Shown in pieces: positions 45,092 through 52,265 of a DNA stretch of 64,000 nucleotides. The notes beneath the pieces are model-generated. The model was not told the DNA's origin. It ran no database searches and was given only the letters and a program-made list of their open reading frames with translations. The DNA comes from Flavobacteriaceae bacterium (GTDB taxonomy: Bacteria; Bacteroidota; Bacteroidia; Flavobacteriales; Flavobacteriaceae). The stretch is taken from assembly GCA_030683815.1 (NCBI GenBank), contig JAUXPJ010000010.1, positions 1-64,000 on the forward strand. The letters are read 5' to 3'. Numbering within the stretch: the stretch's first letter is position 1; every line of letters starts with the position of its first letter. A program made the translations under genes and the position numbers.

Positions 45092-45376
45092 ATGGCAAAT
45101 ACTTTTACACAAATCCATATCCGTTTTGTTTTTGCAGTGAAATTTAGAAAAGGAATGATTCAGCCGCAATGGAAAGATTCATTATATAAATATATTACGG
45201 GAATCATTCAAAATAAAAATCATAAACTTTTATGTATCAACGGGATGCCGGATCATATTCATATTTTGATTGGAGTAAGACCCTCTCAATCGGTTTCAGA
45301 TTTAATGAAAGAGGTAAAATAAAGAGCATCTTATTGGATTAATAAAAATAAAGTGAGAAATAATCAATTTAAATAG
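45092..45376 (+). pseudogene. IS200/IS605-type transposase remnant
   Basis: MANTFTQIHIRFVFAVKFRK and the HUH site PDHIHILIG are those of TnpA-like Tyr transposases. A TAA at 45320 interrupts the frame, but the same frame continues RASYWINKNK, a recognisable continuation of the family, to TAG at 45374. The C-terminal half with the catalytic Tyr is missing. The remnant stops 3 bases before the next gene's ATG, so the fucosyltransferase gene lies at the break. Confidence 0.85.
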
Positions 45377-46497: not shown

Positions 46498-46525
46498 TTG
46501 AATTAAACAATATGATGTAAATTTG
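46498..46525 (+). promoter_or_regulatory. Promoter of the AAA ATPase gene
   Basis: TTG (46498-46500), a 17-base spacer and TAAATTTG (46518-46525) match the Bacteroidota consensus exactly. The ATG follows 18 bases later. No other gene of this glycan region shows such a clean promoter. Confidence 0.72.
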
Positions 46526-46543
46526 TGGTTTATAACAAACAAA

Positions 46544-47740
46544 ATGGAAGATTTATTTGAGAAATACAGACAAAAAGTAAATTATACTTCTACAACATTT
46601 GTTAGAAGCATCATGAATGATATTAATTGGAACTCGCGGCTAATTGGTATAAAAGGTGTTCGTGGTATTGGGAAAACTACCTTGCTTTTGCAATACATCA
46701 AACTAAATTTGAGTCATGAATTAGAAAATACCTTATATGTAAGTCTAGATAATATTTGGTTCAGCAATCATTCTTTAATTGAACTGGTAGATTATTTTGT
46801 TAAAAGAGGTGGTAAATATCTTTTTTTGGATGAGGTACATAAATATCCAAATTGGTCACAAGAACTCAAAAATATATATGATGATTTTCCATTGCTCAAA
46901 GTGGTATTTACAGGTTCGTCTTTGTTGGAAATACTAAATGCCAGAGCTGATTTGAGTCGCCGTGCAAGAATATATTTAATGCAAGGACTTTCTTTTCGTG
47001 AGTATATCAATATGGAAACAGGAATTGAATTTGAACGTTTTACTTTGAACGAAATACTTGAAAATCAAACCCAAATAGCCAATAATATCATCACAAAAAT
47101 AAAACCTTTACATTATTTTGATTCCTATTTAAAACTGGGTTATTATCCATTTTATAAAGAAAATCCTGAACTTTATCACAGCGCTTTAAAAGATGTTATC
47201 AATATGGTGCTAGAAATAGAATTGCCTTTGCTTCGAGGAGTAGATTTGTCTTATGTATTCAAAATAAAACAACTGCTTGTTATCATTGCAGAATCGGTTC
47301 CTTTTGTTCCAAATGTGAGTAAATTGAGCGAAAAAATGGGAATCAATAGAAGTACTTTGCTTTTGTATATTCATTATTTAGATGAAATAGAACTGACAGC
47401 TAATTTGTACAAACAATCGGGTGGAATTAGTAAATTGCAAAAACCGGTTAAAATATTTTTAGATAATACCAATTTGATGTTTGCTTTAACGCCAAAACAA
47501 ACGAATTTAGGAAATATCAGAGAAACTTTTTTTGCCAATCAATTAAGTTATCAACATCAATTAATGTATGTTGAGCATGGAGATTTTTTGGTAGATGAGC
47601 ACTTTGTTTTTGAAATTGGAGGGAAAAATAAAAATACAAAACAGCTAAAAAATACAGACAATGCTTTTGTAGCTGCCGATAATTTAGAAATTGGATTTAA
47701 TAAGACTATTCCTTTGTGGTTGTTTGGATTTTTGTATTGA
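46544..47740 (+). CDS. AAA_14/DUF4143-type ATPase
   Basis: A 398-residue ATPase: Walker A GVRGIGKTTLLLQY (about 36), Walker B KYLFLDEVHKYPNW (about 93), sensor VVFTGSS (about 122). A winged-helix part follows (about 255-300), and the C-terminal DUF4143-like domain ends FVFEIGGKNKNTKQ and IPLWLFGFLY. The ExGGK pattern suggests a PD-(D/E)XK-like fold; this is inference. Members of this family are widespread but of unknown function. It sits alone inside a glycosyltransferase cluster. Confidence 0.85.
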   Translation: MEDLFEKYRQKVNYTSTTFVRSIMNDINWNSRLIGIKGVRGIGKTTLLLQYIKLNLSHELENTLYVSLDNIWFSNHSLIELVDYFVKRGGKYLFLDEVHKYPNWSQELKNIYDDFPLLKVVFTGSSLLEILNARADLSRRARIYLMQGLSFREYINMETGIEFERFTLNEILENQTQIANNIITKIKPLHYFDSYLKLGYYPFYKENPELYHSALKDVINMVLEIELPLLRGVDLSYVFKIKQLLVIIAESVPFVPNVSKLSEKMGINRSTLLLYIHYLDEIELTANLYKQSGGISKLQKPVKIFLDNTNLMFALTPKQTNLGNIRETFFANQLSYQHQLMYVEHGDFLVDEHFVFEIGGKNKNTKQLKNTDNAFVAADNLEIGFNKTIPLWLFGFLY

Positions 47741-47796: not shown

Positions 47797-49188
47797 ATGC
47801 AAAAACTAGGAATTGTCATCACCGACGGAGTTGGATACCGCAATTTTATCCTCTCTGATTTTATAAGTGCCTCAAATCAAACTTTTGATGAAGTGGTCAT
47901 TTTTTCATGTTTGCCAAAGCATGTTTATACAACACTTCCAGAAAATTTCACCATCATTGAATTGGAGGTGTTTCAAGAAAAATTTCCGGCTTGGTTTTTT
48001 AGAAAAGCAAAAGAACTTACCCATCTTCACTTAAATGCCAAAGATAATTTCGGGATTCAGGACAATTTAAAAGCAAACTATTCCACTGCAAAAACTCCCC
48101 GAGGGTTGGTCACTCGTTTGCTGCACAAATGGACTGCCAAAGTACATTCAGAAAAATGGATTCAACGCTATAACTGGCTGCAACAAAAAACATTTCAGTC
48201 AAATCCAATTACGCAACAATACCTGAAGCTTTTAAAAGAGTATCAGCTTTCTATCTTATTTTTTACGCATCAACGTCCACCTTATATTGCACCTTTAATT
48301 TATGCGGCAGAGCAATTAAAAATCAAAACCGCCACTTTTATTTTTAGTTGGGATAACTTGGCGTCTAAAAGCAGGATGGCCGGCAATTTTGATTACTATT
48401 TGGTTTGGAGCGATTTAATGATGCAAGAATTATTGCAATTTTATCCCTCTATTAAAGCAGCTCAAATAGCCGTTGTCGGAACACCACAATTTGAACCCTA
48501 TGTGTTAGATAGGTATAAAATAAGTAAAGATGAATTGATAAAAACTTTTAATTTAGACGCCCAAAAACCCATACTTTTATTCACTTGCAATGATTCAAGC
48601 AGTGAAAATGATCCCATTTATCTGGAGTTGGTAGCCCATTTTATAGCAACTGACAAATTAGTGAAGGAAGTTAATTTAGTGGTCAGAACTTCACCGGCAG
48701 AAGATCCAACGCGATTTAAACATATTGCCGGGAAATTTTCTTTTATTCACTGGAATTACCCCGATTGGAAACTCAGCAGAACTCATCATCAAGAAGCTTG
48801 GTCTCAAAGGGTTCCCTCTTTTCAGGATATCGTTCATTTACGGGGCTTATTAAACCATTGTGATTTATGTATCAACGTGTTGTCAACCATTACGTTGGAT
48901 GCTTTTTTGTTTGATAAACCCGTTATTAATCCCATTTTTGGAAATCAGGAAAATCAACTGTTCAACGATCAAAAATTCTTGAGTTATCAACATTTAGTCA
49001 CCTTAGTAGATTCAAATGCCACGTTGATTGTAAAGAATGAACAACAATTGTTGGATGCCATCAATAAGCAGCTTCAAGAAAAGGATACTCGAAAAATTGA
49101 GCGAAGTAATTTTCTGAAGTTGCAAATTGGAAAACCACTTCCTGGAACCAGTTTACGAATTGCACAAACTTTAAAGGATTGGTGTTGA
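47797..49188 (+). CDS. Glycosyltransferase-like GT-B protein of the glycan region
   Basis: A 463-residue protein not assigned to a named family. The C-terminal half (about 240-440) has a GT-B donor-domain layout: KPILLFTCNDSSSENDPIY, VVRTSPAED, then LRGLLNHCDLCINVLST and TLDAFLFDKPVINPIFG. It resembles capsule and CDP-glycerol-type transferases in that pattern. The next gene's ATG overlaps its TGA. A truncated relative of its first 40 codons lies at 46319. Function as a sugar transferase is likely, not proven. Confidence 0.7.
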   Translation: MQKLGIVITDGVGYRNFILSDFISASNQTFDEVVIFSCLPKHVYTTLPENFTIIELEVFQEKFPAWFFRKAKELTHLHLNAKDNFGIQDNLKANYSTAKTPRGLVTRLLHKWTAKVHSEKWIQRYNWLQQKTFQSNPITQQYLKLLKEYQLSILFFTHQRPPYIAPLIYAAEQLKIKTATFIFSWDNLASKSRMAGNFDYYLVWSDLMMQELLQFYPSIKAAQIAVVGTPQFEPYVLDRYKISKDELIKTFNLDAQKPILLFTCNDSSSENDPIYLELVAHFIATDKLVKEVNLVVRTSPAEDPTRFKHIAGKFSFIHWNYPDWKLSRTHHQEAWSQRVPSFQDIVHLRGLLNHCDLCINVLSTITLDAFLFDKPVINPIFGNQENQLFNDQKFLSYQHLVTLVDSNATLIVKNEQQLLDAINKQLQEKDTRKIERSNFLKLQIGKPLPGTSLRIAQTLKDWC

Positions 49189-50270
49189 TGAAAAAATCCA
49201 AAAAAATAGCCGTGATTTGTAATTACCGATTGATGCCGGAGCGCATTGGCGGAATGGATCGTTTTTTTTGGATGTTTGATGCCGAAGCTAAAAAAAAGGG
49301 ATATGAAATTAGTTGGTTTTTTCCCAATTATAACCTTCATAACAACTATCAAAATCTGACTGTTATTGGTATAGATAACCAATCAGTTGAGGATTCGTTC
49401 TTGATTTATTGTCAACAGAATCAAATCAGGTTTGATGTAGTCATCACTCATTTTGTTGAATTGTGTACGCCTTTTTATCAAAAAGTAAAGAATGATTTTG
49501 GAGATAAAATCATCGCAGTAGATCACAATCCGAGACCTTTAGAAGGATATTCTTTGATAAAAAAAATCAAGAAAAAAGTCAAAGGAATTATATTTTCACG
49601 TTATATTGATGTATTTGTGGGCGTTTCTGAATATACCAAAAATCAAATGTTGATTGATTTTGGCTCGCAAATAGAAAAGAAAACCAAGGTCATTTATAAC
49701 GGAATTGAACATCAATTATATCAAAAAAGAATCCGAAGAAATCATGCATCACCTACTTTTTTAGTGGCGAGTCATTTACGTTATTCAAAAGGAATTCAAG
49801 ATTTAATTGCCGCAGTTTCTTTATTACCCGATGCCCTTAAAAGCAAACTGAAAATTGATATTTATGGTGAAGGTGTTTATAAAGCAGATTTGCTAAGTAA
49901 AGTTAAAAGCGCTCAACTCGAAAAATGTTTCAATTTTAAGGGAAGTGTGCCCAATTTATATGAAATTTACAGTCAATACGATTATATGATTCAACCAACT
50001 CATATGGAGTGTTTTAGCTTGTCAATTTTAGAAAGTTTAAGTGCTAATGTACCTGTAATAACTACCTCGGTAGGAGGAAATGAAGAAGTCATTAAAGCCG
50101 GAGTAAATGGGTATATCATACCACCGCAAGATATTTTATCGTTAAAAACTATATTAGAAAACGTTATTTTAGGAAATGATAAAATAGAAAAAAAAGTTGA
50201 TTCACTGATAGAAAATGAATTTTCTATGGAGAAAATGGTTGAGAGTCATCTTACTTTATCAAAAGTTTGA
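49188..50270 (+). CDS. GT4-type glycosyltransferase
   Basis: A 360-residue enzyme whose ATG overlaps the preceding TGA by one base (TGATG); an in-frame TTG at 49179 is less likely. The N-terminal domain has RIGGMDRFFW, and the donor domain has LVASHLRYSKGIQDLI (about 198), GEGVYKADLL, and MECFSLSILESLSANVPVI with E-x7-E (about 275). It should add a sugar in the same pathway as the gene before it. Confidence 0.87.
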   Translation: MKKSKKIAVICNYRLMPERIGGMDRFFWMFDAEAKKKGYEISWFFPNYNLHNNYQNLTVIGIDNQSVEDSFLIYCQQNQIRFDVVITHFVELCTPFYQKVKNDFGDKIIAVDHNPRPLEGYSLIKKIKKKVKGIIFSRYIDVFVGVSEYTKNQMLIDFGSQIEKKTKVIYNGIEHQLYQKRIRRNHASPTFLVASHLRYSKGIQDLIAAVSLLPDALKSKLKIDIYGEGVYKADLLSKVKSAQLEKCFNFKGSVPNLYEIYSQYDYMIQPTHMECFSLSILESLSANVPVITTSVGGNEEVIKAGVNGYIIPPQDILSLKTILENVILGNDKIEKKVDSLIENEFSMEKMVESHLTLSKV

Positions 50271-50343
50271 TTTTTTTATGATAATTTTTAACATGACTTT
50301 GAAAAAGCAAATAGTCTTTTGTCAAATCGATATGATTTATGTT

Positions 50344-50455
50344 GTCACCTCGAGCAGTTTATACTGAACGAAAACCCAGTACAGTCGAGAGAGAATTAAG
50401 TTACGTTGTCAAATCGAGAAGTTTATACTGAGCGAAGACGAAGTACAGTCGAGAT
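50344..50455. repeat. Left REP-like cluster beside the GIY-YIG gene
   Basis: Two direct copies of a unit of about 48 bases (50344-50391 and 50408-50455). Each starts GTCA, passes TCGAG and AGTTTATACTGA, and ends GTACAGTCGAGA. They differ in a few places (for example CC/AA after GTCA). The second copy is 20 bases before the nuclease start codon. Confidence 0.8.
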
Positions 50456-50474
50456 TAATATTAAAAAGGTCATT

Positions 50475-50807
50475 ATGAAATTCTATTATATTTATATTTT
50501 AAAATGCAGTGATAACTCTTTATATGTTGGAATTACTTCGGACATTGAAAGAAGAGTTATGGAGCACAATGCTGGAAAATATCCAGATGCATATACACAT
50601 GATAGAAGACCTGTAACTTTGGTGTTTTACCAAGATTTTACAGAACCCAATCGAGCTATAGACTTTGAAAAAAAAATAAAAAAATGGAGTCGAGCTAAAA
50701 AACAAGCGTTGATAGATGAAAATTATGATAAATTGCAGTATTTGTCTGAATGTAGAAATGCAACTCATTATAAATACAATTTAGATAATGAATTTGATGA
50801 AGACTAA
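50475..50807 (+). CDS. GIY-YIG nuclease family protein (UPF0213-like)
   Basis: A 110-residue single-domain GIY-YIG protein. YYIYILKCSDNSLYVGITSD holds both halves of the motif, ERRVMEH the catalytic Arg, and AIDFEKKIKKWSRAKKQALI the metal-binding Glu. Stand-alone proteins of this kind are common and of uncertain function. ATG at 50475 is chosen because upstream codons are repeat sequence. It is flanked on both sides by one REP-like family, the right side beginning in inverted orientation. Confidence 0.9.
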   Translation: MKFYYIYILKCSDNSLYVGITSDIERRVMEHNAGKYPDAYTHDRRPVTLVFYQDFTEPNRAIDFEKKIKKWSRAKKQALIDENYDKLQYLSECRNATHYKYNLDNEFDED

Positions 50808-50831
50808 GATTTTAAATTTTTATTTGATAAA

Positions 50832-51060
50832 CGTCTCGACTGCGCTCGACATGACAAAAGTTATAGATTGCGCTCGACGGGACAAAAGAAATAGATTGTC
50901 AAATCGAGTTGATTTACATTGTCACCTCGAGCAGTTTATACTGAGTGAAGACGAAGTACAGTTGAAAGGGAGCGCAGTCGAATGTCAAATCGAGCGCAGT
51001 CGAGATTTAGTTTATATTTGTAATACATAGGGAATGCGTCTCGACTCCGCTCAACGTGAC
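50832..51060. repeat. Right REP-like cluster beside the GIY-YIG gene
   Basis: An inverted copy, CGTCTCGACTGCGCTCGACA (50832-50851) running into TGAC, is followed by direct copies with GTCAAATCGAG and GTCACCTCGAGCAG near 50897-50995, then by another inverted copy CGTCTCGACTCCGCTCAACG from 51038. The family is the same as in the left cluster. The whole gap 50808-51083 is taken up by it. Confidence 0.8.
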
Positions 51061-51083
51061 AAGGAATTTAACTAGAATTTAAA

Positions 51084-52265
51084 ATGAACATCGCTTTTTT
51101 AACCCCCGAATATCCACATCCAAAAACCGGAAACTCCGGCGGTATCGGAACGAGTATCAAAAACTTGGGATTTGGATTGGCAGCTCAAGGATGTTCTGTG
51201 CGAATATTGGTTTATGGGCAAAAAATGGATGCAGTTTTTGAGGATCATGGGATGATAATTCAGCAAATAAAAAATGTAAAATTGAAAGGATTGTCTTGGT
51301 TTTTAACGCGCAAAAAAATTAAAAAAATCATTGATCAATTGTATGAAAATAATGAAATCGATTTGGTTGAAGCGCCCGATTGGACAGGAATAACATCCTT
51401 TATCAAACCAAAAAAGTGTAAAATAGTCATTCGTTTACACGGAAGCGATACTTATTTCTGTCATTTAGATCAGCGTCCGGTAAAATGGATCAATAAATTC
51501 CATGAAAAAAGAGCGCTCAACAATGCCAACGGACTTATTTCGGTGAGTCAGTTTACCGCCAATCTCACCAATAAAATTTTTGGATTTACCAAGGAATTCG
51601 TCATAATTCCCAATGGAATTGATACGAGTCTATTTACTGCAAATGATGATTTCTCTTTCATTAGGAGAGGAGATGGGGGAGCGGATGTCATTTTATATTA
51701 TGGCAGTCTAATCAGAAAAAAGGGCTTATTAGAATTACCCTTAATTTTCAATGAAGTCATCAAAAAAAATCCTAATACAAAACTCATGATAGTGGGTAAA
51801 GATGTTCCTGATAAAATTTCAGGAAACAAATCAACTTGGCAAATGATGCAAGCATTATTTACTGATGAGGCCAAAAAGAAGGTAAGTTATTTAGGAAGTA
51901 TTGCTCATACAGCAATAAAAAAACAAATTGAAAAAGCAAGCGTTTGTATTTTTCCTTCATTTGCTGAGGCCTTACCGGTTTCATGGTTAGAAGCCATGGC
52001 GATGGAAAAAGCAATTGTTTGCTCTAATATCGGATGGGCAAACGAAATTATTGAGGATGGAGTGGACGGATTTTTAGTGCATCCCAAAAATCACACTGAA
52101 TACGCCAATAAAATTGTGGCATTATTAGAAAATAAAGAACTTCAGAAAGAAATCGGAAACAATGCGAGAAAAAAAATGGAACATAAATTTAGCATTGAAA
52201 TAGTAGCAAAACAGAGTTTGGAGTTTTATGAAAGTGTTATAAAGATTAAAAGATTAAAAGATTAA
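51084..52265 (+). CDS. GT4-type glycosyltransferase
   Basis: A 393-residue enzyme. The opening AFLTPEYPHPKTGNSGGIGT with the acceptor-domain glycine loop, IRLHGSDTYF, VIIPNGIDTSLF (about 175), LYYGSLIRKKGLLELP and EALPVSWLEAMAMEKAIV (E-x7-E near 300) fit family 4. It restarts the glycan run after the GIY-YIG/REP interruption. The tail IKIKRLKD is a low-complexity end. Confidence 0.87.
   Translation: MNIAFLTPEYPHPKTGNSGGIGTSIKNLGFGLAAQGCSVRILVYGQKMDAVFEDHGMIIQQIKNVKLKGLSWFLTRKKIKKIIDQLYENNEIDLVEAPDWTGITSFIKPKKCKIVIRLHGSDTYFCHLDQRPVKWINKFHEKRALNNANGLISVSQFTANLTNKIFGFTKEFVIIPNGIDTSLFTANDDFSFIRRGDGGADVILYYGSLIRKKGLLELPLIFNEVIKKNPNTKLMIVGKDVPDKISGNKSTWQMMQALFTDEAKKKVSYLGSIAHTAIKKQIEKASVCIFPSFAEALPVSWLEAMAMEKAIVCSNIGWANEIIEDGVDGFLVHPKNHTEYANKIVALLENKELQKEIGNNARKKMEHKFSIEIVAKQSLEFYESVIKIKRLKD

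Follow-up and report, generated by a model that had tools for sequence, protein, structure and literature searches.

The window, that is, the whole stretch of 64,000 nucleotides analysed here, contains a gene for a small GIY-YIG protein that is bracketed by units of one hairpin repeat family. The features of this locus are as follows.

49179–50270: glycosyltransferase gene upstream of the nuclease gene, its identity judged from its sequence
50343–50391, + strand: TGTCA-tagged hairpin unit, long-loop variant, assigned from sequence (repeat family D1)
50407–50454, + strand: TGTCA-tagged hairpin unit, long-loop variant, ending 20 bases 5′ of the ATG, assigned from sequence (family D1)
50475–50807, + strand: GIY-YIG nuclease gene, 110 amino acids, tail SECRNATHYKY (type T1), assigned from the PF01541 match and tail alignment
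50832–50856, − strand: inverted TGTCA-N4-GAGCGCAGTCGA-N4′ unit, 24 bases 3′ of the stop, assigned from an exact 16-mer match (50834–50849) and the consensus
50860–50884, − strand: degenerate inverted unit with 3 mismatches (family D3)
50920–50968, + strand: long-loop unit of the same type as the upstream units, 84% identical to the upstream copy (family D1)
50970–50981, + strand: partial copy, the core GAGCGCAGTCGA without the TGTCA head (family D5)
50983–51007, + strand: complete short unit, core exact (match at 50990–51005)
51037–51061, − strand: inverted unit with 2 mismatches in the searched 16-mer (family D3)
51084–52265: glycosyltransferase gene downstream of the nuclease gene

This layout confirmed what an earlier note on this DNA had described, namely two direct units ending 20 bases before the nuclease ATG, a downstream cluster opening with an inverted copy 24 bases past the stop (its units reach 51061) and a position between two glycosyltransferase genes. 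The two upstream units and the unit at 50920–50968 represent variants of the core hairpin with a long loop. When TCGAGCGCAGTCGAGA was searched at up to three mismatches, the window gave four matches, where shuffles predicted 0.04. The source genome (2.5 Mb, 23 contigs) yielded 13 repeat matches at up to one mismatch, situated at the window locus and five other sites, and the reversed control pattern yielded none. At four of the five non-window sites, the repeats formed an inverted (+ then −) pair 42 bases apart. Two further genes were observed in the neighbourhood. The glycosyltransferase cluster includes an AAA_14 ATPase with a weak DUF4143 match (46523–47740), and a truncated Y1_Tnp (IS200-like) transposase gene lies 5 kb upstream of the nuclease gene (45092–45322), its match extending beyond the stop up to contig position 45358.

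The window protein is a member of the GIY-YIG superfamily (PF01541; 70.1 bits against the curated Pfam cut-off of 22.6), and a search of NCBIfam with it assigned no family. Residues Y7, Y17, R27, H31 and E65, which we take to be the catalytic residues, showed no variation across 21 aligned GIY-YIG proteins. The AlphaFold model (pLDDT 88) was closest to the UPF0213 NMR models 1zg2 and 1ywl, followed by Slx1, and placed the final helix at residues 84–96, with low confidence beyond residue 90. Because of this predicted fold and the invariant GIY-YIG residues, the protein is likely to be an active nuclease. The source genome has a single copy of this gene; its second GIY-YIG match lies inside a 600-codon open frame.

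As an imperfect hairpin with a TGTCA tag, the repeat follows the pattern TGTCA-N4-GAGCGCAGTCGA-N4′, and its stem letters covary. Its consensus was derived from 642 core copies at the collected loci (at most one mismatch), reduced to 498 dissimilar units. These units share a conserved order of TGTCA, four variable bases, the near-invariant 12-base GAGCGCAGTCGA and four variable bases, with almost no conservation beyond the hairpin unit. The letters of the tag were conserved in 90%, 89%, 95%, 89% and 81% of units (T, G, T, C and A, respectively). The four stem positions were paired in 96%, 96%, 95% and 94% of units, compared with the 74%, 72%, 42% and 41% expected from column composition. As DNA, single 25-base units folded no better than shuffles (z about 0.3 and 0.5), and the inverted dimer folded strongly relative to shuffles (z −7.4). 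Among 439 core clusters, a count in which overlapping loci were entered more than once, 292 were single, 43 were arranged as + − and 34 as − +. Many copies were situated in intergenic DNA.

The core was closely associated with nuclease genes across the family. In the first locus sample (29 new loci from a protein search and 60 further stretches down its list), bracketing by the core was seen for genes with the tail ECxN-x-T/S-H. The earlier note had proposed counting how often the gene adjoins the repeat; in a separate profile scan of named genomes, all 80 loci had a core at up to two mismatches within 150 bases of the gene; 69 had one at each side. At 126 related genes, core density was 8.39 per kb within 150 bases and 0.14 per kb beyond 600 bases, a difference of approximately 60-fold. 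The nearest upstream core lay on the + strand of the gene in 99 of 113 cases, the nearest downstream core was inverted in 82 of 109, and the median distances were 26 bases to the ATG and 13 from the stop. Some loci had unusual structures. The nuclease unit occurred in tandem copies in L085 (G212; spacing about 765 bases) and in L049 (G244) and L050 (G013; about 1 kb in both). In L051, L199 and L210, the nuclease frames lacked the usual stop and continued downstream (1254, 843 and 1104 bases, respectively), the L051 frame crossing a stretch that is hairpin-like (GLDSARPD) before entering a second protein.

The type of hairpin followed the type of C-terminal tail. Among 189 gene places (199 minus 10 with identical flanks), all 124 genes with an ECxN tail carried the GAGCGCAGTCGA-core hairpin (H1), all 35 short-tailed (KKKFK) sister genes carried a different TGTCA hairpin (H2) and all six SKNY-tail genes carried a third (H3), although related genes are not independent, so these counts are not probabilities, and the tail classes, H2 and H3 were defined post hoc, after part of the same loci had been seen. 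Word counts in the flanks gave the short-tailed group hairpin as TGTCA-(G/C)TTCGAGTG-...-TGTATCGAGAA(G/C), and the SKNY-tail hairpin contains GAGC(C/T)TGTCGA. Another hairpin type was additionally present at two ECxN, two short-tailed and one SKNY gene. The remaining 24 genes, with other tails, included seven with H1, two with H2, two with H3 and 14 with none (one bears two); among them were H1-bracketed genes with the tails QCRN, EFRN and TCKN, which the tail pattern missed. On contig L184, two nuclease genes of differing tail type each adjoined their own hairpin; one of these tails departs from the first-type pattern by one letter and was counted among the other tails. The short-tailed genes had initially been scored as unbracketed because only one core was sought, and their use as a repeat-free control was rejected when an assumption-free repeat search found repeats across the gene. 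In a tree of 77 proteins based on few columns, the short-tailed group formed one clade (97/98), and the housekeeping relatives YhbQ and YazA branched apart on long branches.

The pairing seen in other families of the same class agrees with the Flavobacteriaceae pattern: G470 had the first hairpin, G376 the second and G413 the third. Of 30 loci outside the family, 19 were examined; at six, one flank or both carried H1, H2 or H3, and none of the three was found at the other 13. A further tail–hairpin pairing occurred at one outside locus (L352, G358), where the nuclease tail is NPxW and the bracketing repeat resembles CGTCATGCAGAGCGCAGCGAAGCATC.

Relatives of the nuclease were also found in a search of plasmid records, in Alphaproteobacteria and in two Neisseria records. 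From the 84 matches listed (50 + 34, some records in both), 28 loci were chosen. Repeats across the gene exceeded the best of 60 shuffles at 14 of these loci (L327 and L328 only marginally), and 12 of the 28 had strong inverted repeats of the CGTC or CCTC type. Genes in this set of 12 occurred in Azospirillum, Sinorhizobium, Rhizobium, Shinella, Novosphingobium, Sphingobium and Methylobacterium, as well as in Neisseria gonorrhoeae, whose GIY-YIG homologue is bracketed by a CGTC-type repeat; the Azospirillum gene is positioned between sufB and sufC. At L307, repeats were visible by eye and not detected in the shuffle test, and the same test found none at L310, L320, L321 and L322. Nine chosen control genes, including Bacillus subtilis yazA and Escherichia coli yhbQ, had no bracketing repeats. 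In the 77-protein tree, the window protein was outside the branch holding the Neisseria and rhizobial members. A 2013 study (Di Nocera, De Gregorio and Rocco, PMC3733652) described CGTC-tagged REPs, whose tag is often TGTC or CCTC, from Alphaproteobacteria, Neisseria, Bacteroidetes and others. They were given stems of 8–9 bp, loops of 4–5 bases and a short tail, and were said to have no transposase of their own. Based on the sequence comparisons, we propose GIY-YIG nucleases as a candidate dedicated enzyme of these repeats.

At the genome level, a nuclease protein match was obtained in 200 of 299 genomes of the family, counting all GIY-YIG relatives, and the core was present in 166, with almost no matches to the reversed control pattern. 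Genomes with the tail motif had at least five cores in 43 of 47 cases, and those without it in 60 of 252 (Fisher, 6e-19), the motif used for this count being strict, such that some tails were missed. The earlier note had taken absence of enrichment beside the nuclease, or a repeat common in genomes without the gene, as evidence against a link. Enrichment was clear, and several repeat-rich genomes nonetheless lacked the gene. A profile search of 20 repeat-holding genomes found no nuclease match at E 0.01 in six (G080, with 43 cores, G097, G222, G282, G058 and G015), and at E 0.001 no match was found in G340 (34 cores), G501 (7) and G317 (6); G340 is represented by one contig and belongs to another family. 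We infer that gene loss accompanied by slower repeat loss would explain such genomes. In G104 and G231, the tail DNA motif matched and no exact core was present; these matches may be due to chance or represent a nuclease without its repeats.

A large proportion of the Flavobacterium loci had the nuclease gene at a syntenic site common to the window, and in other genera it was at other loci. Within part of Flavobacterium, the gene at the window locus seems to have passed down vertically and to be now a resident, not a recent arrival. In Algibacter, 12 repeat sites of an uncultured genome (G299) were compared with two congeners, a presence/absence reading being obtained at six. The core was missing in both aligned relatives at L247, L249 and L255, and at L245 it was missing in G300 and ambiguous in G265; at L251 and L267, the relatives had an aligned copy that was partly degenerate. 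As these relatives were mostly 75%–90% identical, junctions were inexact and no target duplication was readable. Single hairpin units at L247, L248 and L255 were apparently inside open coding frames of Algibacter genomes. For L247 and L255 (G299), the host genes looked conserved and the core was absent from the aligned relatives.

The earlier note had inferred a link between nuclease and repeat family from position, and this link was strengthened by the enrichment, by the finding of one hairpin per nuclease type and by independence from Y1 transposases (see below). The data are also compatible with its further suggestion of a nuclease that would spread the repeat. Cognate recognition of the hairpin by the nuclease is predicted and very likely, and spreading of the repeat by the nuclease is plausible. 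We consider it probable, with reasonable though incomplete confidence, that the GIY-YIG endonuclease targets the bracketing hairpin and that repair or copying of cut hairpins spreads the repeat and the gene unit. In this proposed mechanism, the target of the small stand-alone endonuclease would be the hairpin with its 5′ TGTCA tag, variable 4-bp stem and invariant 12-base core, and the C-terminal helix and tail would recognise it. The enzyme would act on the repeat in single-stranded form, during replication or on DNA taken up in transformation, and nick or cleave the exposed strand at or near the TGTCA tag. Repair or copying of the cut hairpins could then lead to the spread and persistence of the repeat and its inverted dimers, and now and then the complete gene unit (about 0.4 kb) might spread as well. 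Nuclease and hairpin would stay together because the former is specific for the latter. The analysis itself shows the bracketing, the enrichment, the stem covariation, the pairing of hairpin with nuclease type and the independence from Y1 transposases; that the enzyme binds the hairpin, cleaves it as a single strand and contributes to its spread is inferred.

Other explanations of the association were considered. The nuclease might recognise the hairpins without spreading them, using them as control sites, for example in DNA uptake during transformation, as is reported for Ssn in Neisseria, and the repeats would spread by recombination or replication slippage. Such a role would fit the presence of the gene at one common locus in many Flavobacterium species, its single copy alongside few repeats in the source genome and the repeat-rich genomes without the gene. 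It is rather unlikely, since the gene is closely bracketed in many lineages at different loci, and both the dimer organisation and the insertions within genes resemble dissemination. A different possibility is that a RAYT-type Y1 transposase mobilises the repeats, with the GIY-YIG gene carried along as a passenger, given the truncated Y1_Tnp gene 5 kb away and the 5′ tag and hairpin resembling RAYT-linked REPs. However, among 13 genomes searched (12 repeat-rich genomes and the source genome), Y1_Tnp (PF01797) was not found in seven, including G179 with its 104 cores, and 29 of 30 Y1 loci had no core, the other having one with one mismatch. The RAYT hypothesis was rejected for these 13 genomes, and it is largely refuted and very improbable.

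The gene and the repeats could also simply collect in the same permissive intergenic regions, by chance or at hot spots. The abundance of repeats in intergenic DNA and the location of some genes in variable clusters, such as the glycosyltransferase locus of the window, would be expected in that case; the short median distances, the inverted orientation and the 60-fold density would not. Type-specific pairing, which holds even with two nuclease types on contig L184, refutes this explanation unless the pairing is an artefact of relatedness, and we regard it as the least probable of those considered. Cutting of the hairpin by its cognate nuclease, followed by repair or copying, is our preferred reading, and it can tentatively be extended, as a possibility that we would not yet favour: GIY-YIG nucleases might serve the CGTC/TGTC-tagged REP superfamily as a whole, across Bacteroidota and Proteobacteria, as its dedicated enzymes. 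They would then form a second, non-RAYT spreading machinery in which the C-terminal tail would read the core, and a gene plus the hairpin at each end (~0.4 kb) might be among the smallest self-contained mobile units.

With these results, bacterial repeats of a class described in 2013 as having no enzyme gain a candidate for one. Within one bacterial family, each of three nuclease tail types has its matching hairpin, which opens the specificity to tail and hairpin swaps. A causal pairing would account for a large share of the short-repeat content of Flavobacteriaceae and would put a set of small sequence-specific DNA-cutting enzymes at hand.

Among known systems, the housekeeping GIY-YIG proteins (UPF0213/YhbQ/YazA) have the same fold and size as the window protein, but the chosen examples lack bracketing repeats and are on separate long branches. 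RAYT/TnpA-REP systems with GTAG REPs are similar in that an enzyme gene is bracketed by a scattered, tagged hairpin, often in inverted dimers; they differ in having an HUH Y1 transposase instead of a GIY-YIG protein and a GTAG instead of a TGTC tag, and 29 of the 30 Y1 (HUH) transposase loci in the searched genomes lacked the core of the repeat studied here. CGTC-tagged REPs are likewise short palindromes with an unpaired CGTC/TGTC end tag, form inverted dimers, lie in some cases within genes and have no RAYT (PMC3733652). Head-to-head dimers are their usual arrangement; the 439 clusters counted above held single units and pairs of both orientations. Their stem of 8–9 bp contrasts with the 4-bp outer stem and invariant 12-base core found here, and the study reports no associated transposase, in contrast to the attached GIY-YIG gene (PMC3733652). 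In the 498 units of the window family, the end tag is of the CGTC/TGTC kind, and the 8–9 bp stem with a 4–5 base loop is not present. A literature search, covering few subscription journals, found no work linking GIY-YIG nucleases to REPs. A 2025 paper in Nature Communications reportedly describes a GIY-YIG family, Ssn, that cuts single-stranded DNA site-specifically; its sites are said to include a Neisseria repeat, and Ssn is said to affect transformation. That family would resemble the present case in linking a small GIY-YIG protein to a genome-wide repeat, and such a tie between protein and repeat family was found here; the window protein differs in lying off the Neisseria branch and in having its own C-terminal tail and hairpin. 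The earlier note had regarded a GIY-YIG protein in a REP-associated role as new, a view weakened by the reported Ssn family and the bracketed N. gonorrhoeae homologue. The principle of a nuclease tied to a repeat is thus probably not new, and the window gene would, if the Ssn family is as reported, represent a Bacteroidota branch of the Ssn kind with its own hairpin. Novelty may lie in the three tail–hairpin pairs and in the connection to CGTC REPs.
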